DNA of 43,124 nt from contig CATLHC010000018.1 in NCBI GenBank assembly GCA_949948775.1, positions 1-43,124 on the forward strand, in the 5' to 3' direction. Below, in pieces: positions 1-39,325 of this stretch; within the stretch, counting starts at the first letter, position 1, and every line of letters starts with the position of its first letter. A program made the position numbers and the translations under genes. The notes under the pieces were generated by a model, which saw only the letters and a program-made list of their open reading frames with translations, made no database searches and was not told where the DNA came from. This DNA is from an uncultured Oscillospiraceae bacterium. GTDB taxonomy: Bacteria > Bacillota > Clostridia > Oscillospirales > Oscillospiraceae.

Positions 1-2092
1 GGATGTTGTTCTTGGTGTAGGCCATCATCTCGTCGGCCACGTCGGTGTCGCGGATGGTGGACTCGGCATCCTGGATGTTCTCGGTCATGACGGACAGGTT
101 GTTGATGGTGTGGTCCAGACGGTTCTGGGTGGCGCCCAGAGTACCACGCAGGTCGGACACCTGGTTGATGGCGGCCTTGATGGCGTCCACGGCGGCGGCG
201 GCGCTGTCCTGATCGGAGATCTTCACATCGCCCAAGCCCAGCGAATCCACGTGCATATCGCCGATAGACACCACCAGCTGGTTGTAGTCGTCTGCGGTAT
301 CGCCGATCTGGAGGGTCAGGCCCTTCTGGGCCTCCTTCGCCTCGGTGACGGTGGTCTGGTCAACGCGCATCTTGAAGTTGGCGGCCAGCTTCTCCAGGGT
401 GTTAAAGGCGCAAGAACTTCCGCCGCTGATGGCGTCCTTATCGTACGCAGTTGTACGCTGCACGGTCAGGCCCTTGGGGAAGCCCTCGCTGCCGTCGCTC
501 ACGCCGATCTTGAACTCAACGTTCTGCACGTTTCCGTCCTTGTCCAGAATCTTGAAGTTGACGGTGGAGCCCAGCGCCTTGCTGATCTTGCTCAGGGCGG
601 TGTTCAGATCGTCGCCCTCGTCGATCTTCACATAGCCGCTGGTAGCGGCAGTCGCTTCGATGCCGGTCTTGAACTTGCTGTCAACGCCCACGGCCAGGGT
701 GAGGGTGCGGGTGCCGATGGCAATCTTGGTGCCGTCCACGATGTCGGTTTCCTTGATGTTGAAGATGGTGTCGGCCTTGTTGGCGTTGGCCTTGGCCACG
801 CCGTCCGTGGAGACATAGGTGCCCGGCTTGATGGAGGCGGACATGGAGAAGCCGTTCTCGCCCTCCTTGGCGCCCTCAAGGGTGATCTTGAAGTCCTCAT
901 CGCCGTTGCTCTTTTCGATGCCGATGCTCACATCGAAATTGGCCCGGGCCTCATCGGCGGTCTCCGGGAGCCTGAGCTGCTCGAACTTCAGTATGCCGTC
1001 GCTGGCCTCCACAGACCACTTCATGCCGTTGATATCCACAACAGCGTTGTTGTCCGCAATGCTGCTGGCAATGATTTTTGCAATCGAGGCGCTCACCTTT
1101 CCAGCGCTGGAAGAAATCGTCAGGCCAGCTTTGCCGGTGGAAAGCTTGACGCCGTTTACAGTAACCGAGATGGTGTCTTTAATGGTCACCTCACTCGCCT
1201 GGTTGACAGTCGAGGCGCCTGTCACAGTTACAGCCGTATTGGTGCCGATGTTGACAACCTGTGCCTTAAGCACACCGCCGGTGCCCACTGTAACCTCGAG
1301 CTTGATGCCGGCAGCGCTGCCAGTACCGGAAACCGTAAAGGTTTCGCCAACCTGATAGACCCCCGATGCGGCAGCCTTAACTTTAATTATAGCGCTATCG
1401 GTGCCACCGCTAGCCGTTGCCATGGAGACAACAATAGCATGGGTTGCCTTAACCGTATAGGAGGGACTCTGCTCAAACTTCATGGTGGTCAGGTCGATCT
1501 CAAACTTGGCGCTCGCGGCGGAAGCGCCGGCGCCGTCCAAGATGGTCTTGTTGCCGGCCACATCATAGGCTTTCTCGTTCTCGCCGATGACGCTCTGGAT
1601 AATGCGGTCCATGCCGGATATTTCCACCGTTTCAGTCTTAGAGCTGCCCTCCACGGCCGCGCTCACGGCCATGGAGCCGTCCAGCAGCTTGATGCCGTTG
1701 AAGTTGGCGCTGTCGGCGATGCGGTTGATCTCGCTCTTCAGCTGGTCAACTTCCTTCTGGAGCTGGTTGCGGTCGGTGGTGTTGTCGTAGGTGCCGTTGG
1801 CGGACTGGGTGGCCAGCTCCACCATACGGTTGAGCATATCGTGAACCTCAGTCAAGGCTCCCTCGGCGGTCTGCACCAGGCTGATGCCGTCCTTCGCGTT
1901 CTTCTGGGCGGTTTCCAGGCCGGTGATCTGGGCGCGCATCTTCTCGCTGATGGCCAGACCGGCGGCGTCGTCGCCCGCGCGGTTGATCTTGTAGCCCGAG
2001 GAGAGCTTTTCCAGGTTGGACTTCATCGCGGACACGTTGTTCGTGTAGTTGCGATAGGCGTTCATGGCCATTATGTTGTGCTGGATCCTCAT
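1..2092 (-). CDS. hag: Flagellin, very long, C-terminus cut by window edge
   Basis: Structural subunit of the flagellar filament, exported by the flagellar type III system and polymerised outside the cell. The N-terminus reads MRIQHNIMAMNAYRNY, followed by the conserved D0/D1 helices (LSSGYKINRAGDDAAGLAIS; GISLVQTAEGAL; ATQSANGTYD). The left end of the window encodes the conserved C-terminal D1/D0 region (LGATQNRLDHTINNL; AESTIRDTDVADEM), so probably only a few tens of residues are missing. About 697 codons are visible, far more than the roughly 270-400 of common Clostridia flagellins; the excess is a Ser/Thr/Ala/Val-rich central domain that would be surface exposed. There is a cysteine in the GGSSCAF segment, unusual for flagellin. 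The start is set by AAAGGAA about 9 bases upstream of ATG. It follows csrA on the same strand and its leader has a CsrA-type hairpin, so translation is probably repressed by CsrA. Confidence 0.95.
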   Translation of the reverse strand, partial: MRIQHNIMAMNAYRNYTNNVSAMKSNLEKLSSGYKINRAGDDAAGLAISEKMRAQITGLETAQKNAKDGISLVQTAEGALTEVHDMLNRMVELATQSANGTYDNTTDRNQLQKEVDQLKSEINRIADSANFNGIKLLDGSMAVSAAVEGSSKTETVEISGMDRIIQSVIGENEKAYDVAGNKTILDGAGASAASAKFEIDLTTMKFEQSPSYTVKATHAIVVSMATASGGTDSAIIKVKAAASGVYQVGETFTVSGTGSAAGIKLEVTVGTGGVLKAQVVNIGTNTAVTVTGASTVNQASEVTIKDTISVTVNGVKLSTGKAGLTISSSAGKVSASIAKIIASSIADNNAVVDINGMKWSVEASDGILKFEQLRLPETADEARANFDVSIGIEKSNGDEDFKITLEGAKEGENGFSMSASIKPGTYVSTDGVAKANANKADTIFNIKETDIVDGTKIAIGTRTLTLAVGVDSKFKTGIEATAATSGYVKIDEGDDLNTALSKISKALGSTVNFKILDKDGNVQNVEFKIGVSDGSEGFPKGLTVQRTTAYDKDAISGGSSCAFNTLEKLAANFKMRVDQTTVTEAKEAQKGLTLQIGDTADDYNQLVVSIGDMHVDSLGLGDVKISDQDSAAAAVDAIKAAINQVSDLRGTLGATQNRLDHTINNLSVMTENIQDAESTIRDTDVADEMMAYTKNNI

Positions 2093-2177: not shown

Positions 2178-2238
2178 TTTGCTCCGCCCTGCCTTGTTTC
2201 CGTGGCCTTTGGAAAGCCAGCGCGGCGCTGTATTTCAA

Positions 2239-2254
2239 CCGGCTCGTCAGCCGG
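2239..2254 (-). other. Small GC hairpin overlapping csrA stop
   Basis: Inverted repeat CCGGCT-(4)-AGCCGG spanning the csrA stop codon. No U-tract follows, so it is not a convincing terminator. It may be an RNA-processing or attenuation structure between csrA and flagellin. Confidence 0.4.
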
Positions 2255-2474
2255 AAGAAACCGGAATTGGGGAACCTTTTACTTTTTCTTCCTTCGGGTC
2301 GAGCAAGCCCTTGGGCCGCTCCTCGCCGTTCCGCTCCAGCACTTCGCCCCGGAGGATGGTCATATCCTTGGGCGCCTGCACGGAAACTTTAATGGTGGAA
2401 TTTGTAAACACCTGAACGACAATATCGTCGCCGATGGTCAGATACTCGCCGTCCTTGAGCTGCAAAAATAACAT
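2247..2474 (-). CDS. csrA: Carbon storage regulator CsrA
   Basis: RNA-binding translational regulator of about 75 residues; in Gram-positive bacteria its main known target is flagellin mRNA and its antagonist is FliW. The protein starts MLFLQLKDGEYLTIGDDIVV and contains the family hallmark APKDMTILRGEVLE around residues 34-47. The C-terminal tail (about residues 50-75) is longer and more charged than in many CsrA proteins. The start is fixed by AAAGGAG seven to eight bases upstream; an in-frame upstream extension exists but has CsrA-unlike, low-quality sequence. It sits between the TldR-like gene and flagellin on the same strand, so it is likely co-transcribed with one or both. No fliW is visible in the window. 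Confidence 0.93.
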   Translation of the reverse strand: MLFLQLKDGEYLTIGDDIVVQVFTNSTIKVSVQAPKDMTILRGEVLERNGEERPKGLLDPKEEKVKGSPIPVSSG

Positions 2475-2500
2475 GGCGGAGACTCCTTTCACCGCACAGC

Positions 2501-2513
2501 CCCATCCTTTGGG
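2501..2513 (-). promoter_or_regulatory. Possible CsrA site in csrA leader
   Basis: On the minus strand CCCA-AAGGA-TGGG forms a four base-pair stem with GGA in the loop, about 30 bases before the csrA start; the Shine-Dalgarno AAAGGAG supplies a second GGA. This arrangement suggests csrA autoregulation. The hairpin is short, so confidence is limited. Confidence 0.35.
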
Positions 2514-2521
2514 CAAGCTTT

Positions 2522-2717
2522 CATCGTCATAATATTTTGGACGCCCCAGGGGGCTTTGGCCGCGATTTTTCAAAGACGGCCTCTCGTTTCCCACTCGACG
2601 GCTTCGGAAACGCTGAGCGAAGCGGGAAATTGCAAGTTTTCTGTTTCGCTCAACGCTCCAGCCGGAAGCATGGGCTTTCACCGGCGTCCCGACCGGTATA
2701 GCGGAGGAATTGATTTA
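2522..2717 (-). ncRNA. Candidate guide RNA of the TldR-like protein
   Basis: TnpB and TldR proteins use an RNA encoded at the 3' end of their own gene, with the guide at the RNA 3' end. Directly after the stop codon of the TldR-like gene is a structured non-coding stretch. It contains hairpin ACCGG-(8)-CCGGT (2680-2697), a 12 base-pair stem with G-U pairs between 2645-2656 and 2610-2621, hairpin GTTTCC/GGAAAC (2586-2611), and GCCC-CCTG-GGGC near 2544-2556. The guide would begin after one of the last two hairpins. No convincing target match exists in this window. Boundaries are approximate; the call depends on the neighbouring gene's identity. Confidence 0.45.
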
Positions 2718-3899
2718 TTAAGCGGCTTTCCGCTTTTGCGTATTTCGATATTGGGCCAGCCCCTGGGCCTTGATATTTTTCGCGGCGTTGACCTCCCGGT
2801 CGTGGACCGCGCCGCATTTGGGACAGACCCAGCGTTTCTTTTTATAGGGAATCTCACTGTCCTGCACAAATCCGCACTCGAAGCAGGTGCGCGTGGTGGG
2901 AGCGTAGCGGTCAACTACGATCATCGCTTTACCCCGCTGCGCCAGCTTGTAGCGCAGGCACTCCCGGAACATTCCGAACCCGGAGTCCAGGGGGCCGCCG
3001 TGGGGGAGCCGCCGGGCCATTTCGTCCAGGGCATCGGGCCGCACACACACGGCGTCCCAGCCGTTGGCTATCCGGCTGGACTGCTTGTGGATGAAGTCGC
3101 GCCGCTGGTTGGCAACGTGTTCGTGGAGCAAACGGTATTTTTGGACCGCTTCCTGATAATTTTTAGACCCTGGCTGCATCCGATTGAGATGCTTTTGGAG
3201 CTTTGCCAGCTTCTCCTGGGACTGCCTCAGCCAGTGGGGGGCGTCGGCCAGCTCGCCGCTGTCCGCCACATAGAAGTGGCTCATGGAATATTTCAGCCCG
3301 ATTGTGGACTCCGGAGCGGGGATGACGGCCTCCGGTTCTTTCACCGTGTACTCATAGAGAATGCAGGCGAAGTATTTGCCGGTCTTGGTTTTCTCCACCG
3401 TGACCCGTTTCAGCCGCCAGCCGTTCCGGGGCCGGCGGGGGAACTTGGCCCGGACAATCCCGGCCTTGGTCATGCGGATGCCGTCCTTGGTGATGTAGAT
3501 GGTGGGGCCGGATTCAAACACATGGTTGCAGGCGGTAAAGGAGTCCCGGTCAGTTTTCTTTTTCTTAAAGTTGGGATAGCCAAAATGCTCGGGGCTTTTG
3601 AAAAACACCCGGAACGCCTGGGACAGCTTGTTGTGTTCCTGGATCAGCGCCTGGTTGTCTACCTCGGTCAAAAACGGCGCTTCCTTCTTGTATTTGGCCG
3701 GGGTGGGGATGAAGTGCTTGTCGGTTTCCAAGTAAAACCGCTGCTGGTCGGCCAGCATATGGTTCCAGATGTAGCGGCAGCAGCCGAAGGTTTTCTCAAA
3801 CAGTTCGACCTGGGCCTCATCGGGGTAAAGACGGGCCTTGATGGTGGTATATTGGATTTTCAAGCCATCTTTGCAGGCTCCTTTTGGCTTTCGAGGCAT
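2718..3899 (-). CDS. TldR-like nuclease-dead TnpB (IS605 OrfB family)
   Basis: 393-residue TnpB-family protein: N-terminal OrfB helical region (about 12-110), RuvC-like domain and a C-terminal zinc ribbon (C339, C342, C359, C362). Active TnpB needs Asp-Glu-Asp. In ungapped alignment to the family patterns, RuvC-I GIDLG is here GLKYS (K203 for Asp), RuvC-II VVVEDLN is VCVRPDA (R287 for Glu), and RuvC-III DRDxNAA is DREVNAA (E369 for the second Asp). The fold otherwise looks intact (KLAKLQKHLNRMQPGSKNYQ; HEHVANQRRDF), the frame is open and no TnpA neighbours it. This is the signature of TldR proteins, domesticated RNA-guided transcription factors first described beside flagellin and transporter genes. 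Here it precedes csrA and flagellin. An inactive relic transposase is the alternative, but an undamaged frame argues for selection. The start at MPRKPKG has a moderate Shine-Dalgarno (AAGGTGG). Confidence 0.85.
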   Translation of the reverse strand: MPRKPKGACKDGLKIQYTTIKARLYPDEAQVELFEKTFGCCRYIWNHMLADQQRFYLETDKHFIPTPAKYKKEAPFLTEVDNQALIQEHNKLSQAFRVFFKSPEHFGYPNFKKKKTDRDSFTACNHVFESGPTIYITKDGIRMTKAGIVRAKFPRRPRNGWRLKRVTVEKTKTGKYFACILYEYTVKEPEAVIPAPESTIGLKYSMSHFYVADSGELADAPHWLRQSQEKLAKLQKHLNRMQPGSKNYQEAVQKYRLLHEHVANQRRDFIHKQSSRIANGWDAVCVRPDALDEMARRLPHGGPLDSGFGMFRECLRYKLAQRGKAMIVVDRYAPTTRTCFECGFVQDSEIPYKKKRWVCPKCGAVHDREVNAAKNIKAQGLAQYRNTQKRKAA

Positions 3900-3955: not shown

Positions 3956-3975
3956 GTCTTATGGAGCCTGAATTC

Positions 3976-3993
3976 GAAAAAGTATACTTTTAC
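3976..3993. repeat. 18-bp palindrome, copy 1 (GAAAAAGTATACTTTTAC)
   Basis: Differs at one position from the perfect palindrome GTAAAAGTATACTTTTAC at 4091-4108. The two copies bracket a 97-bp AT-rich stretch upstream of the TldR-like gene and downstream of a serine recombinase gene. They could be operators, or crossover sites for the recombinase. Confidence 0.7.
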
Positions 3994-4080
3994 AAAACCA
4001 ATAAGCCTCAAGAGATTTTTTCGATTTCACTCTTAATTTTCAAGTTTTTGCGCCGAATAATAGGATGTAAGAAAAATGGA

Positions 4081-4118
4081 GCGGCACTTTGTAAAAGTAT
4101 ACTTTTACGAAGTGCCGC
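4081..4118. repeat. 38-bp palindrome overlapping recombinase 3' end
   Basis: GCGGCACTT-T-(18-bp core)-G-AAGTGCCGC: an inverted repeat with a single mismatch, whose core GTAAAAGTATACTTTTAC recurs at 3976-3993. The last codons and the stop of the recombinase lie inside it. On the minus strand it is followed by CATTTTTCTT, so the transcript could also form a terminator. It may serve as terminator, operator or recombination site. Confidence 0.75.
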
Positions 4119-4734
4119 AAACGTTTATCTCTAAGGATTTTTCAACGCGAACCGCTTTGGCGTAGAAGGTTCCCTCCGGCATGTCACACGCTCTGGCCGC
4201 CTGTTGGAGCGTCATCTTTTTGTTTCTCCAGTCCTTATGTACCTGATGGAAGTTATCAGGCAGCGGCTGGGATGGCCTGCCGAATCTCACGCCCCGGGCT
4301 TTTGCCGCCGCGATACCCTCTGCCTGCCGCTGACGGATATTCTCGCGCTCATTCTGCGCCACATAACTGAGAAGCTGGAGCACAATGTCCGCAATCAGCG
4401 TCCCGGTCAGGTCTCGGTGGATGCTGGTATCCAACAGGGGCATGTCAAGCACACGAATATCTGCCTGTTTCTCTTTGGTGATGATCCTCCATTGCTCCAG
4501 AATCTCCTCATAATTGCGCCCAAGCCGGTCGATGCTCTTGACAATCAGAAGGTCGCCCGGTTTTAGCTTTTTCATCATCCGCTGGTAAGCCGGACGGTTG
4601 AAGTCCTTGCCGGACTGCTTGTCCAAAAACAGATTTTTATGGGAAATATCAAAGATGGCCAGGGCCGCAAGCTGACGGTCCTCGCTTTGGTCGCGGGCAG
4701 ATACCCGCACATAGCCGTAAGTCGTTCCTTTCAT
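4105..4734 (-). CDS. Serine recombinase, resolvase/invertase family
   Basis: Site-specific recombinase of 209 residues with the small serine-recombinase layout. The catalytic domain is N-terminal (YGYVRVSARDQSEDRQ with nucleophile Ser12; KSIDRLGRNYEEILEQW around residues 66-82), followed by the long E helix (RQRQAEGIAAAKARGVRFGR) and a C-terminal helix-turn-helix (MTLQQAARACDMPEGTFY). An N-terminal catalytic domain excludes IS607 TnpA, which begins with a MerR-type HTH. The start has AAGGAGG upstream and a plausible promoter (TTGGGG-17-TAGAAT). It lies just upstream of the TldR-like gene, with palindromes between them, so DNA inversion or deletion controlling flagellar genes is conceivable. 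A close paralogue lies at 38741-39325. Confidence 0.92.
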   Translation of the reverse strand: MKGTTYGYVRVSARDQSEDRQLAALAIFDISHKNLFLDKQSGKDFNRPAYQRMMKKLKPGDLLIVKSIDRLGRNYEEILEQWRIITKEKQADIRVLDMPLLDTSIHRDLTGTLIADIVLQLLSYVAQNERENIRQRQAEGIAAAKARGVRFGRPSQPLPDNFHQVHKDWRNKKMTLQQAARACDMPEGTFYAKAVRVEKSLEINVCGTS

Positions 4735-4800
4735 AGGGCGGCCTCCTTAAAATAGTATCAGCTACCCTATTCTACATGAAATCCTTGTGTTCCCCAAAAT

Positions 4801-4886
4801 GAACGACCCTACCCAATCTGAACAACTTGCTGTCAGTTGTTCGGATTGGGTAGGGTCGTTCTTTGCCTGCAGCCCTTATATTTCAA
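4801..4886 (+). repeat. Dispersed 86-bp palindromic repeat, copy 1
   Basis: Two 25-base arms (GAACGACCCTACCCAATC... and its complement, one difference) separated by 11 bases, plus a 25-base tail beginning TTTGCCTG. The whole unit, including the tail outside the palindrome, recurs on the opposite strand at 22819-22904 with scattered substitutions and no length change. This looks like a small MITE or REP-type element, possibly one that doubles as a terminator. Confidence 0.85.
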
Positions 4887-5015: not shown

Positions 5016-6734
5016 TCAGCGTGCCGGAATTGTTATTGAAGAACCGCTTTTCAGCTTAAACCTTCCCACCAGACTCTTCATAAGCTGTGACTGACTGGAC
5101 AGTTCTTCGCTGGCCGCCGCGCTCTCCTCCGCGGTTGCCGAGTTTGTCTGTACAACATTGGAGATCTGGTCAATTCCCACGGTGAGCTGAGCGATGGAAT
5201 CCGCCTGATCGCTGCTGGCCTCCGAAATCTGTTGGATAATGCCGGCCATTTCGTTCACGTCATTGACCGCTTGAATCAAAGACTGCTCCGTATCGTCCGC
5301 AATCTGCGTTCCGTTTTTGATTGCCTGCAAAGAATTCTCAATCAAAACAGCGATATTTTCAGAGGCCTCCGTGCTTTTGTTCGCCAGATTGCGGACCTCA
5401 TCGGCTACTACGGCAAACCCTTTTCCGGCAGCGCCTGCGCGGGCGGCTTCTACGGCGGCGTTTAGGGCGAGAATATTGGTTTGGAAAGCAATATCTCCAA
5501 TAATTTTCATGATTTTGCCGATCTCGCTGGAGCAGTTGCTGATCTCCCCCATCGCCCGTGTCATCTGCTTCATTTTTTCTTTGCTCACATCCATCTTCAC
5601 GCTGACACCGCCTGCCGCTTCACTGGCCTGCCGCGCACTGTCTGCGTTCTGATTCACCTTGTTGGAGATTCCATCGATGGTGGCGGCGAGTTCCTGCACA
5701 GAGCTGGCCTGCTCAGTCGCCCCCTGGGCAAGCGCCTGGGCGCCATTGGACACCTGATCCGCCCCGCTGGCGACCTGGGAGGAGCTTTGACTGATTTGCA
5801 GCATTGTGTCGTTGAGCTTGTCCGCAATGCCCCGGAACGAGACAAGCAGCGGATAGAAGCAGCCTGTATACGCTTCCTCGCAGGTGGAATCCACCGTAAA
5901 ATCTCCCTCGGCCATTTTCGCAAGGAATTGGTTCTCATCCTCAATGATCATCTGAAGCTTATGGATCAATCTGCCCACCTGAGCGGCGAGGACACCCAAT
6001 TCGTCCTTCGAGGTATAAGAGATCTCTACATCCAGATCCCCTTCTGCCATTTTGATGGCGGCATTCTCAATTTCGGAGATAGGAGTTTTGATCAGGCGGA
6101 TAATCACAAATGAGAAGAAGACGCCCACGAGGATGATGGCAATAATAACCGCTGTCATGGTCAAGGTGGCATTTTTGTAAAGGGAGGCGCTTTCTGCCGC
6201 CGCATCATCACTGCCTTTTGTATTGTAGGCGATAATATCATTGAAGGCGCTGTTTAAAGAATTATAAAGCGTTACACATTCGCCTTCCAGAATTGCGCGG
6301 GCATCCTCAATACGGCCCTGTTGGGCCAGCATCATCATTTTTTCATCCGCCTCATTGTACTGAATCCAAAGGTTCATCGCATTATTATAGAAGTCGCTTT
6401 CCTCTTCATCAATTAAATCGCCATATACGGCCAGGAGAGCGGCCATATCTGCTTTTTCATTTTGGAGGTATTGAAGGCTGGATTCCTCCACGTCATCAGA
6501 AATTGCGGTGAGATACCCTAATTCATTCAGGCGAACATTCGATATGGTGGCGCTCAATTCCCTTGCCACATCGACACTGGGAAGCCAGCTTGTTGCAATG
6601 TCGCTTGTCATTTCGTTCATCTTACCCATGAGCAAAAATGACATCCCGCTGATAATGAACATTCCAAGCAGCGCAACTCCGATGAGGATATAGAGCTTTA
6701 GTCTGATTTTTAAATTTTTAATGTAGTGAATCAT
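5016..6734 (-). CDS. Methyl-accepting chemotaxis protein
   Basis: Membrane chemoreceptor of 572 residues that senses an external ligand and controls CheA. Order of domains: TM1 about residues 11-36, a periplasmic-type four-helix-bundle sensor (about 38-188) with the [12 protein letters not shown] segment, TM2 about 190-212, HAMP ([20 protein letters not shown]), and a long cytoplasmic coiled coil. The hairpin tip carries [20 protein letters not shown] and [15 protein letters not shown]. It lacks a C-terminal pentapeptide tether. The start has AGGGGAGATTGCAAAT before ATG. A sigma-D type promoter upstream ties it to the flagellar regulon. It is the last motility gene of the block. Confidence 0.96.
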
Positions 6735-34380: not shown

Positions 34381-36012
34381 TTACGCCGCGATGTCGGTCT
34401 CCAGGGCGTCCAGATCCTCGGGGAGCTCGTACTCCTCGCCGAAGAACTCGGCCAGCACCTGGTCGCAGTTGAGCACGGCCTCGCCGTCCTCACCCGTCAG
34501 GGTGGTCAGGTCGGCCACGGCCACGGCGTTGGTGCCGAACACGCCGGCGAAGTTGTCCAGGAACTCCCGGACAGCGGCCACGGTGACCAGCTCGTCGGGC
34601 TCGAAGGTGCCGTCCTCGTGGCCCTCGGCGTCAAGGTACGCCTGGGCCACGCCGTTCTCCTCCGCCCAGCACAGGGCGTCGAAGTACTCGTGGGTGTCCT
34701 CCACGTCGGTGAAGGTGCACACGCCCTCGCTGTCGGGCTCGCCCTCATGCCGCCACAGGTAGTCGATGAACTCCGCGCGGGTCACAGGGCCCGCGGCCAG
34801 AGGCACGGCCTGGTCGTCGATGGTGACGTCGGTGTCGCCGAAGTCGTAGTCGTAGGTGGGGTACGACGTGAAGGTGCAGGTCGCGGTATAGATGATGTTG
34901 CCGTTCTCATCCGGCTCCCCAGCAACCCAATTGGTGAAGGTGTAGTAGCCTCCGACACCGGGGACAGTGCCTTTGTTCTCCTGTGCGGTGAAGGTGTTAT
35001 TCACCTTGCCGTGGGTCGTGGTGGTGCTGTTGTCCTGACCGGCACCAGTGACGGTGTAGGTCACGTTGTAGGTCCTCTCGGTGTAGGTCCTGGTGATCTC
35101 GCCGGTCTCCGGGTCCCTCGTGTCGCTGTGCTTGTAAAACTGCTCATTGACTTTATCAAGCCCATCAACGATCATCGCAGTGGCACGGTCAACGACCGTC
35201 TTGCCGTCGCCGTCTGGCGTCTCAATGTTGGTGCCCTGACGGATGTACTTGGAGTCGGTCGCGACGTCGGTCTTCTCTTGGAACTGCGCATTGCCGTCCT
35301 CGTTCAGTGCTCCAGTAAAGTCCTTGATCACGACCTTGACCTCGGTGTTCTGGGACTTCTCAACGATAGCGTCAACGTGGATGGCGTTCCTGGCCGGATT
35401 CTCTGCAGTCCCATCTTGCTCAACAAATACAACCTTGTTGCTGCCATCAGCCTGGGGCACCGAGTCGCCGCTATACTCCTTGTTCCAAATCGGCCCACTC
35501 GCCTGGATCTCGTCAACATACGCAGCCGCGCCGTTTTCTTTCTTCACATCCCAGGTGACAGAGTAGGTGTACTGGTCGTTCAGCACGTCGTCGGTGCCAT
35601 TGCTGGTATCGTACACATACACCGTCTCACCCTCGGTGAGATTGCCCTGCTTGATGAGGTTGTCGACCTTACTCGTGTCCGCTTTGACCTGGACATCGAC
35701 CTCCTTCGTACCACTACCAATCAGCTTTGGCACTTCTCCTTTACCCTCGGTCGTCTGCATACCCTGGTTATCGCCCTTGGGCGCGGTGACAACATCCGTA
35801 TCCAGGACGCCATTCTCATCAACAGCACCTACCGCCTGGTCATTCCCATCAAAAGTGACGCTGTCATCGACCTCGCCTTTACCCGCGAACTCCCAGCCTG
35901 CGTCCCCGTCCTTGATGTAGAAATAGGCGTCCTGCGCGAACGCGGGGGCGATCATACCGGCGCACAGCGCCAGGGACAGGCCAATGGCCATCAGTTTGTT
36001 CATTTTTTTCAT
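34381..36012 (-). CDS. Secreted SLH-domain surface protein
   Basis: 543-residue exported protein. Signal peptide MKKMNKLMAIGLSLALCAGM with cleavage near APAFA-QD. The middle (about 35-420) is acidic, Thr/Asn-rich and beta-like, of no family I recognise. The C-terminal S-layer homology region includes GPVTRAEFIDYLWRHEG, CTFTDVEDTHEYFDALCWAE and ENGVAQAYLD, which would anchor the protein to cell-wall polymer. The family usually has three SLH repeats; here about one and a half are evident. The start follows AAAGGAATATTGTAAC. Four c-di-GMP riboswitch aptamers lie in its leader, so expression should respond to c-di-GMP, consistent with an adhesin or matrix role. Confidence 0.87.
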   Translation of the reverse strand: MKKMNKLMAIGLSLALCAGMIAPAFAQDAYFYIKDGDAGWEFAGKGEVDDSVTFDGNDQAVGAVDENGVLDTDVVTAPKGDNQGMQTTEGKGEVPKLIGSGTKEVDVQVKADTSKVDNLIKQGNLTEGETVYVYDTSNGTDDVLNDQYTYSVTWDVKKENGAAAYVDEIQASGPIWNKEYSGDSVPQADGSNKVVFVEQDGTAENPARNAIHVDAIVEKSQNTEVKVVIKDFTGALNEDGNAQFQEKTDVATDSKYIRQGTNIETPDGDGKTVVDRATAMIVDGLDKVNEQFYKHSDTRDPETGEITRTYTERTYNVTYTVTGAGQDNSTTTTHGKVNNTFTAQENKGTVPGVGGYYTFTNWVAGEPDENGNIIYTATCTFTSYPTYDYDFGDTDVTIDDQAVPLAAGPVTRAEFIDYLWRHEGEPDSEGVCTFTDVEDTHEYFDALCWAEENGVAQAYLDAEGHEDGTFEPDELVTVAAVREFLDNFAGVFGTNAVAVADLTTLTGEDGEAVLNCDQVLAEFFGEEYELPEDLDALETDIAA

Positions 36013-36059
36013 GTTACAATATTCCTTTCTTTGCATTTTGCGGACGCAAAGGGTCCGGC

Positions 36060-36150
36060 GGTCGGGCTGCCGTAGCGGAACCGGGAGACCCGGTTCATAC
36101 CGTAGGCCCCATAACTTTGCGTCCCACGGTTTCCCGTGGTTTGCTCAGTC
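36060..36150 (-). promoter_or_regulatory. c-di-GMP class I riboswitch aptamer 4
   Basis: Closest to the SLH gene. Core AGCAAACC-ACGG-GAAA-CCGTGG-GACGCAAAG followed by GGGGCCTACGG, a GAACCGGG/CCCGGTTC stem and GCTACGGCAGCC. The leading base of the usual GGCAAACC is A here. About 50 bases separate it from the start codon. Confidence 0.85.
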
Positions 36151-36251
36151 GCAGTCGGACGGGCATAGCGTCAAAGGGTTCGCGCAACCCCCCTCCGGCG
36201 CCGCAGCCTCCAAAACTTTGCGTCCCATTGTTTCCAATGGTTTGCCAAAAT
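36151..36251 (-). promoter_or_regulatory. c-di-GMP class I riboswitch aptamer 3
   Basis: GGCAAACC-ATTG-GAAA-CAATGG-GACGCAAAG, with covarying stem bases relative to its neighbours, then a longer second arm (about 15 bases more than aptamers 1 and 2) ending CTATGCCCGTCC. Less canonical downstream arm; it may be partly degenerate. Confidence 0.75.
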
Positions 36252-36334
36252 GCAGCCCGGCGAGCGTAGCGCGGCACCTGCCACCCCTTAGCCCCGTGGC
36301 TTTGCGTCCCGCAGTTTCCCGCGGTTTGCCGAAA
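36252..36334 (-). promoter_or_regulatory. c-di-GMP class I riboswitch aptamer 2
   Basis: GGCAAACC-GCGG-GAAA-CTGCGG-GACGCAAAGC, then ACGGGGCTAAGG and GCTACGCTCGCCGGGCTGC. Its 3' half is nearly identical to that of aptamer 1, pointing to duplication. Confidence 0.9.
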
Positions 36335-36420
36335 GCAGCCCGGCGAACGTAGCGCGGCACGCCCCGCGCCTTAGTCCCGTAGCTTTGCGTCCCACGGTTT
36401 CCCGTGGTTTGCCAATCGCC
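36335..36420 (-). promoter_or_regulatory. c-di-GMP class I riboswitch aptamer 1
   Basis: First transcribed of four. GGCAAACC-ACGG-GAAA-CCGTGG-GACGCAAAGC with GAAA tetraloop, then ACGGGACTAAGG and GCTACGTTCGCCGGGCTGC. These match the GEMM-I (c-di-GMP-I) consensus: GGCAAACC, GNRA-capped stem, GACGCAAAGC, CTA(A/C)GG receptor. Confidence 0.9.
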
Positions 36421-36546
36421 GTTTTCGTCTCACCCCGCCGCCGTCGGCGTACCCGGCGGCGGGTCCTTCCCCGGGGGGATTCGCTCCCATGACGCCCCCT
36501 CCTTTCGTTGTTTTATATTGGAATCAGCCGCCGAGGCGGCGGGTTC
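36421..36546 (-). other. Leader upstream of the riboswitch array
   Basis: Begins with GCCGCC/GGCGGC hairpin just after the transglutaminase stop and has an AT-rich CAATATAAAAC that may be a -10. A 39-codon frame with strong Shine-Dalgarno (AAAGGAGGGGG) runs into aptamer 1, probably by chance. No clear -35 is visible, so the array might be reached by read-through. Confidence 0.4.
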
Positions 36547-38736: not shown

Positions 38737-38747
38737 AAATTTACTCC
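38737..38747. repeat. 11-bp direct repeat AAATTTACTCC, left copy
   Basis: Overlaps the recombinase stop. An identical copy at 39386-39396 lies upstream of the gene; together they bracket it. Possible recombination site or remnant of element insertion; chance cannot be excluded. Confidence 0.4.
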
Positions 38748-39325
38748 TTACACCAGCGCTGGAAGGTTCCGTGGGCCACGCCCAGCCTTTTAGCCGCCGC
38801 CCGGCCGCTGAGTTCCCCCCGCCGCCAGGCAGCCATAACGCCCTCGTAAGCTTCGCCCCGGTCCTTGCGCCTGCGCCCGAAGCGGACGCCCTTGGCTTTT
38901 GCCGCCGCGATGCCCTCAGCCTGCCGCTGGCGGTTGAATTCCCGCTCTGTCTGCGCCACGTAAGACAGCAGCTGGAGGACGATGTCGGCGATCAGCACAC
39001 CTGTGAGGTCCCGGCCCCGGCAGGTGTCCAGCAGGGGCATGTCCAGCACCACAATGGCCACCTGCTTCACTTTGGTCAGCAATCGCCATTGCTCCAAAAT
39101 TTCATCGTAATTCCGCCCCAGCCGGTCGATGCTCTTGATGACAAGGGTATCGCCGGTTTTCAGTTTGCGCACCAGCCGCTGGTATCCGGGCCGGTCAAAA
39201 TCCTTGCCCGACTGCTTGTCCAGAATAATATTGCGGCTTTCAACCCCGAATTGCCGCATGGCGATGATCTGCCGGTCTTCGTTCTGCTCCTTCGTAGAGA
39301 CCCGTACGTATCCATAGGTGTTCAT
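38741..39325 (-). CDS. Serine recombinase, resolvase/invertase family (second copy)
   Basis: 194-residue small serine recombinase, paralogue of the one at 4105-4734. Catalytic start YGYVRVSTKEQNEDRQ with the nucleophile Ser at residue 10, KSIDRLGRNYDEILEQW, ADIVLQLLSYVAQTERE, E-helix RQRQAEGIAAAKAKGVRFGR, and C-terminal HTH SGRAAAKRLGVAHGTFQRW. AAGGAGGAGCACG precedes ATG. The two recombinases share long identical blocks but differ in the DNA-binding C-terminus, so they probably act on different sites. The direct repeat AAATTTACTCC occurs at its 3' end (38737) and upstream (39386). Confidence 0.92.
   Translation of the reverse strand: MNTYGYVRVSTKEQNEDRQIIAMRQFGVESRNIILDKQSGKDFDRPGYQRLVRKLKTGDTLVIKSIDRLGRNYDEILEQWRLLTKVKQVAIVVLDMPLLDTCRGRDLTGVLIADIVLQLLSYVAQTEREFNRQRQAEGIAAAKAKGVRFGRRRKDRGEAYEGVMAAWRRGELSGRAAAKRLGVAHGTFQRWCKE

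Follow-up and report, generated by a model that had tools for sequence, protein, structure and literature searches.

A nuclease-dead TnpB in a probable phase-variable flagellin-swap cassette of an uncultured Oscillospiraceae bacterium

Introduction

What does a TnpB-family protein do when its three catalytic positions are occupied by other residues and its neighbours are flagellar genes, and which gene would its guide RNA address? The question is raised by a 43,124-nucleotide stretch of DNA (contig CATLHC010000018.1, positions 1 to 43,124, assembly GCA_949948775.1), hereafter the window, from an uncultured Oscillospiraceae bacterium. A preliminary description, made from the letters of the window alone, held that a 393-residue TnpB encoded there is a TldR-like protein with Lys, Arg and Glu at the RuvC positions, a complete zinc ribbon and no TnpA gene, that it controls flagellin (the neighbouring one or a second one elsewhere) through a guide RNA, and that the csrA gene lying between the two adds a second RNA-based layer. 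It proposed as checks a structure-guided alignment to ISDra2 TnpB and a phylogeny of close homologues with the conservation of their neighbours, and took homologues scattered without linkage to csrA or flagellin as evidence against its reading.

csrA-associated TldRs of gut bacteria, with flagellin-targeting guide RNAs, have been described by Walker et al. 2026 (PMC13418256), whose main text defines the clade by the presence of csrA and fliC no more than 3 kb from tldR and reports hin upstream of most loci, with inversions of ~120 bp that carry a FliA-dependent promoter. For relatives of the protein studied here, the same main text describes binding of the guide RNA, targeting of DNA within fliC ORFs and binding of CsrA to the target leader (PMC13418256). 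Here we analyse the window and its relatives by comparison of their sequences.

Results

The tldR open reading frame (2718-3899, minus strand) is intact, and its 393-aa product, assigned from the list of reading frames, domain matches, profile alignment and relatives, matches three Pfam TnpB domains. It scored 225.9 bits with the NCBIfam model guided_TnpB (cut-off 100) and 259.9 bits with IS200_TnpB, below the cut-off of 425. In a profile of 14 homologues, to which the ISDra2 structures 8h1j and 8bf8 aligned with E values of about 2e-53 and 5e-53, K203, R287 and E369 align with the Asp, Glu and Asp of ISDra2 TnpB that we take to be the RuvC catalytic residues. A single-sequence search agreed at positions 1 and 3 and left a gap at the Glu in the ISDra2 rows; the placement of R287 was taken from the profile alignment, which replaced it. 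The structure-guided alignment thus finds the three catalytic positions replaced by Lys, Arg and Glu, as the preliminary description had it, and the zinc-ribbon cysteines that it listed are present. The absence of a TnpA gene also held: a search of the window's own genome (89.4% complete) revealed no Y1 TnpA, and in this genome the TNB domain occurs once and tldR is the sole TnpB-family gene found.

We compared 35 loci, namely the window, 30 from the genome_contigs scan and four from a search of 60 genomes. Lys occupies RuvC position 1 in 31 of the 35 (window included; the remainder have Asn, Ser, Gln and Ser), Arg position 2 in 32 of the 34 that include the region (the remainder have Lys and Thr) and Glu position 3 in all 32 that include it; the three occur jointly in 30/35, and the first catalytic Asp and the second catalytic Glu are absent from every row. 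Asp289, two residues past R287, is nearly invariant among the homologues, and a new role for it is conceivable.

Close tldR homologues were found in 11 of the 60 genomes, its own included, all of them in the window's genus. A phage origin of the cassette was considered and is without support, the viral collection holding one distant relative (34%). csrA and fliC each lie downstream of tldR in 30/35 loci, and hin or a piece of it lies upstream in 27/35, some of the misses being contig ends. In five of these 27 loci hin is on the other strand and in L026 only a fragment is present; of the eight loci without hin seen upstream, seven have none and L050 starts inside tldR. Five loci (L022, L024, L025, L026 and L036) have a C-terminal-half Hin fragment immediately upstream of tldR, accompanied in all except L026 by a further hin match. 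In a tree of 31 of the 35 rows (L014, L045, L050 and L051 were omitted as partial), the window pairs with L022 (99/93) inside a group of 28 rows, which includes Oscillibacter sp. 1-3 (L035), Lawsonibacter and Pseudoflavonifractor and has Lys/Arg/Glu throughout except for three rows with other position-1 residues. Phylogeny and neighbour conservation came out on the side of the preliminary description, linkage to csrA and flagellin being kept, the opposite of scattered homologues. The gene therefore has the marks of a TldR, a TnpB-family protein with lost RuvC catalytic residues whose gene is single-copy, lacks a transposase partner and is stably linked to non-transposon genes; the type assigned at the outset agrees with this evidence and with the experiments on relatives in the main text of PMC13418256.

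On the minus strand, the cassette runs from a chemotaxis receptor gene (5016-6734) through hin, inverted repeats around a promoter, tldR, the guide-RNA scaffold and guide, and csrA to fliC; the Hin-like invertase gene (4105-4734), the repeats and promoter before tldR, and the guide are elements beyond those in the preliminary description. csrA and fliC lie at most 3 kb from tldR, as in the csrA-associated clade. csrA (2247-2477, minus strand) encodes a paralogue of 76 aa (PF02599, E=1.1e-13) that scores below the NCBIfam csrA cut-offs, and another csrA of the genome adjoins fliW on contig C2. The linked (cis) flagellin gene (1-2092, minus strand) is truncated at base 1, where the contig ends, and a second, unlinked flagellin gene lies on contig C111; contig C1 has a third, weaker Flagellin_N match (40.7 bits). 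Positions 1-130 of the window and of the unlinked locus (L003, G000:C111) are the same 3' flagellin stretch, alike at 129/130 bases; the linked gene is cut because both flagellin contigs stop in this conserved 3' part, probably an assembly break. Elsewhere in the window, a terminator-like hairpin (30 nt, 93% complementary) at 4798-4864 separates hin from the chemotaxis receptor gene, and three consecutive c-di-GMP-I riboswitch matches (36054-36423, minus strand; the middle one 35.2 bits against a threshold of 35) sit upstream of a gene (34381-36036) whose 551-aa product has an S-layer homology match. Another small serine recombinase is encoded at 38741-39325 (minus strand); a search around it found no pair of long inverted repeats spaced as in an inverton.

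The Hin-like serine recombinase upstream of tldR (209 aa, minus strand; PF00239, E=1.6e-28) scored 45.5 bits with the Mpi invertase model, below its cut-off of 272, and its resolvase domain begins at residue 6. The TnpA of IS607 elements has a MerR-type head. An IS607 origin of the recombinase was rejected (23.4 bits with an IS607 model whose cut-off is 110), and no serine recombinase with such a head lies beside the TnpB gene. Two 24-nt arms, 96% complementary, lie on the hin side (4088-4111, minus strand) and the tldR side (3973-3996, minus strand), with 20/21 positions pairing in the best register, where 25 shuffles gave 12-15. Within the invertible segment is a sigma28-like promoter, TTAA-N15-GCCGAATAA (4033-4060, plus strand), which is directed away from tldR, so that the window as assembled is in the OFF orientation. 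Within the window this pattern by itself lacks significance, 0.65 occurrences being expected by chance, and the promoter call rests for this reason on its recurrence, in both directions, between hin and tldR of relatives.

Both arrangements of the segment were seen between relatives. By blastn, the promoter segment is inverted between L030 and L045 (85.5% identity), L038 and L041 (85.7%) and L039 and L041 (86.9%), over 130-152 nt and flanked by same-strand matches; the inversion between L031 and L032 is weaker (72.5%), the matches outside it being mainly the arms. The locus thus has the features of a Hin/Gin/Mpi-type invertase system, a recombinase beside repeats and both arrangements between relatives, not within the window's species, and, like csrA-associated TldR loci, it has hin and a promoter inverton upstream. 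Across 34 loci, 15 (the window included) were called OFF, four ON and 12 were left uncalled, and three were without clear repeats. On the repeat measure, shuffled sequences scored 12-16 of 21, so that 15 of the 19 called loci count as having clear repeats, 16/21 or less, as in the other four, being chance level.

In the OFF arrangement, a terminator-like hairpin forms over the hin-side arm (4081-4118, minus strand; -23.6 kcal/mol, z -7.77), and after in-silico inversion of the window no hairpin with a U-rich tail was found. A consensus terminator scan did not report the window hairpin, whose tail is poor, and we keep it as terminator-like on its folding and on the relatives. A strong hairpin with a U-rich tail (-22 kcal/mol or lower) stands behind hin in OFF only in 12 of the 19 called loci, comprising eight assembled OFF and four ON loci inverted in silico, and in 10 of the 15 called loci with clear repeats. 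The seven called loci without it are L012, L023, L027, L035, L042, L047 and L049, and L035, L042 and L012 have weaker hairpins in the other arrangement (-13.0, -12.2 and -7.4 kcal/mol respectively). Among uncalled loci, L020 has a hairpin of -25.8 kcal/mol after inversion and L034 one of -20.5 kcal/mol as assembled.

Downstream of tldR, alignment of 23 loci and folding predict a guide-RNA scaffold (2540-2700, minus strand) with a long stem-loop and an invariant GGGAAACGAGA; the strand folds at -66.4 kcal/mol (z -3.07 against shuffles) in the window. Of the 27 main-clade guide regions, the alignment (A1) includes 23, L012, L031, L032 and L034 being omitted for their long inserts, and gave a consensus fold of 39 pairs, 20 with kept two-sided change; its last helix (columns 220-238, 4 pairs) extends into the guide and was excluded from the scaffold. 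Right before csrA, the 23 aligned loci share a very similar 20-nt stretch that resembles flagellin codons 5-11, and alignment to these codons of fliC set the register of the predicted guide (2520-2539, minus strand), whose 5' edge could shift by about 3 nt. When 2201-3000 was searched with exact 12-mers against the genome's own flagellin loci, mismatches hid the target, which became visible through the comparison of relatives. A degenerate pattern was built to cover guides and flagellin starts, with one mismatch allowed, so that its matches to these are by design: in the window's own genome it finds the guide, the start of the unlinked flagellin gene and, at one mismatch, that of the linked gene, no further match being found and the reversed-pattern control giving 0. 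It also occurs in the flagellin starts of six genomes that yielded no close tldR (G002, G005, G010, G018, G027 and G033), and hence the target is ordinary flagellin sequence. As in TldR loci, a conserved guide RNA is predicted downstream, with a guide that appears to match a host target (3 mismatches in 20 nt).

Which flagellin does the guide fit? In the window's own genome, its 9-nt core, AATATTATG, has no mismatch with the unlinked flagellin gene and two with the linked one, and over 20 nt it has three and five mismatches respectively. For 24 guides, hand-chosen as having both kinds of gene and compared with the best unlinked gene where two exist, the core is nearer the unlinked gene in 22, tied in two and nearer the linked gene in none. 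This set omits outgroup-type guides, guides missing a linked or unlinked gene, and L020 and L111, in which the linked gene matches the guide and no other unlinked gene was found; one 'unlinked' gene of G064 (L154), counted here and in the codon comparisons, adjoins a broken outgroup-type tldR. In G015, AACATCATG is present both in the guide and in one of the two unlinked genes, while the linked gene carries AATATTATG; in G069, the unlinked gene has AATATTTTG in common with one of the two guides, at a place where the linked genes have CTG or TTA. These two genomes suggest that where the unlinked gene changed, a guide can change along with it. The predicted target is the unlinked second flagellin, not the linked one, which refines a preliminary interpretation that is largely right. 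Guide-RNA control of flagellin, as first proposed, thereby gains support at the sequence level, with its target narrowed to the unlinked gene. In the leader of the unlinked fliC (L003), 16 nt of the target, TTCAGCACAATATTAT, are repeated downstream of a sigma28-like promoter; no such copy was seen in the 15 other leaders compared, and L020 shows just its own guide.

The N-termini encoded by linked and unlinked genes are nearly identical, and the synonymous differences fall chiefly in codons 2-8. Eight pairs of a linked and an unlinked gene, drawn from seven genomes (11 were listed, three of them lacking sequence), use different codons for a shared amino acid in 34/48 cases in codons 2-8 versus 54/388 in codons 9-60, a contrast whose Fisher value of 3.6e-16 is not a clean probability, the pairs being related. 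Over 29 within-genome pairs, the differences amount to 53/86 in codons 2-4, 55/88 in codons 5-8 and 271/1392 in codons 9-60; the codon comparison omits L020, L111 and outgroup-type loci. This pattern fits a linked gene escaping the guide. Gene conversion whose tracts end near the start, or an effect on translation start, could leave a similar trace: the leaders of linked and unlinked genes diverge, conversion tracts may often end there, and codons 2-4, which fall outside the guide in the chosen register, differ as much as codons 5-8 (19/24 and 15/24 in the eight pairs). We nevertheless think such an origin unlikely, though worth serious attention, since between genomes the differences are raised at codons 2-8 in linked genes (0.47, versus 0.27 at codons 9-60) and not in unlinked ones (0.26 versus 0.24), and since guide and unlinked gene changed together in G015 and G069. 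Codons 2-4 may hold the TAM.

How far such differences would protect the linked gene bears on a second alternative, in which TldR is an autorepressor of its own linked flagellin or operon. A guide of 6 nt is enough for the Enterobacter TldR, which tolerates natural mismatches (PMC13418256, main text), so that one or two mismatches may leave the linked gene unprotected if they lie outside the seed; moreover, the linked fliC of the window matches the degenerate pattern with a single mismatch, and at L020 (G034:C72) and L111 (G062:C134) the linked flagellin is a perfect match to the guide core. Autorepression is nonetheless improbable, given one to four core mismatches in the linked fliC of all 25 main-clade loci with a guide (L020 omitted) and the better match of the unlinked gene for 22 of 24 guides. 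L020 also has no csrA match. That tldR is an ordinary decayed TnpB, a transposon leftover beside a flagellar operon, is scarcely credible: its family membership and the broken or partial relatives (L014/L019 and L051/L021; internal stops in 4 of 32 homologue matches) stand against an intact reading frame, Lys/Arg/Glu together in most loci, a conserved scaffold and guide, fixed neighbours and a genome in which, at its present completeness, neither a second TnpB nor a Y1 TnpA was found.

A role for the cassette CsrA was sought in the flagellin leaders. The CsrA motif predicted in the target leader is CAAGGAUG (PMC13418256, main text), which occurs exactly in 2/24 unlinked versus 0/33 linked leaders. 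A wider motif, CAA(N)GGA(T/A)G, widened after the leaders had been inspected, occurs in 11/24 versus 0/33, plain ATGGA in 11/24 and 9/33, and A(N)GGA in all. The difference between unlinked and linked leaders is suggestive and sensitive to how the motif is defined. Control in two layers by csrA and TldR, the other main proposal of the preliminary description, fits these sequences and the experiments on relatives; it is already in print (PMC13418256, main text), and a third layer, the Hin inverton, had been missed.

Discussion

Altogether, our analyses indicate that the locus is very probably a csrA-associated TldR cassette, chromosomal and phase-variable, that exchanges one flagellin for another. 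The parts and their order, their conservation, the lost active site, the scaffold, the guide-target match and the inversions between relatives were read directly from the sequences compared here. In the mechanism that we propose, Hin would flip a segment of ~115 bp (3985-4099) bearing a FliA (sigma28) promoter, which in the ON orientation would drive tldR, guide RNA, csrA and fliC as a single operon. TldR with its guide RNA would then bind the unlinked flagellin gene at its first codons and block its transcription, the cassette CsrA may block translation of leftover message, and the linked flagellin would be made instead, spared by its different synonymous first codons. Repression in the organism itself, use of the promoter there and escape by recoding are what its sequence would predict. 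Tentatively, and with somewhat more doubt than belief in the whole, we further propose that the cassette distinguishes its own flagellin from the target by the way in which the two genes are coded, and that four features act jointly: recoding of codons 2-8 with the peptide kept, by which the guide, and perhaps the TAM, would no longer fit; co-change of guide and target; a CsrA-like leader motif in unlinked genes only; and a flip that, in turning the promoter away, would build a terminator behind hin and so seal the operon.

The system is already known, and the window locus is a new example of it. It has in common with the clade of Walker et al. 2026 the dead TnpB with csrA and fliC, a guide to the fliC ORF, hin, the inversion and an enlarged scaffold stem-loop (PMC13418256, main text). 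That study tests an Oscillibacter member, for which its main text reports an RNase III-cut dual guide RNA (PMC13418256). Oscillibacter sp. 1-3 is in the present tree, and the species of the window is another member. The words 'terminator', 'synonymous' and 'self-target' are absent from its main text, the part of the paper to which this statement applies as distinct from figures and supplements, and the recoded start, the leader motif and the OFF hairpin would be additions beyond that main text; our literature search found no other paper on TldR and flagellin. The present work gives an independent comparative view of the guide's target gene, of the possible avoidance of the guide by the cassette's own flagellin and of a possibly tight on/off inversion. 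The co-changes of guide and target would moreover amount to a natural experiment on TldR specificity.

Comparison extends to the Enterobacter fliC-associated phage TldR, whose original study is reportedly that of Wiegand et al. 2024, and to Salmonella fljBA, in which FljA is the repressor of the other flagellin. The Enterobacter TldR belongs to a flagellin-remodelling prophage and has in common with the window cassette RNA-guided repression of one flagellin while the cassette supplies another; it is phage-borne and targets a promoter region (PMC13418256, main text), whereas the window cassette is chromosomal, includes csrA and hin and has a predicted target at the coding start. With Salmonella Hin/fljBA, the window cassette shares a Hin-inverted promoter that leads into an operon of one flagellin and the repressor of the other (the comparison with Hin is drawn in the main text of PMC13418256), the repressor being FljA in Salmonella and an RNA-guided protein with CsrA in the window. 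Finally, the putative OFF terminator resembles that of Clostridioides difficile cwpV, in which, according to the model set out in PMC2784873, inversion forms an intrinsic terminator in OFF. The cwpV promoter lies outside the switch (PMC2784873), whereas in the window cassette promoter and hairpin would switch together.
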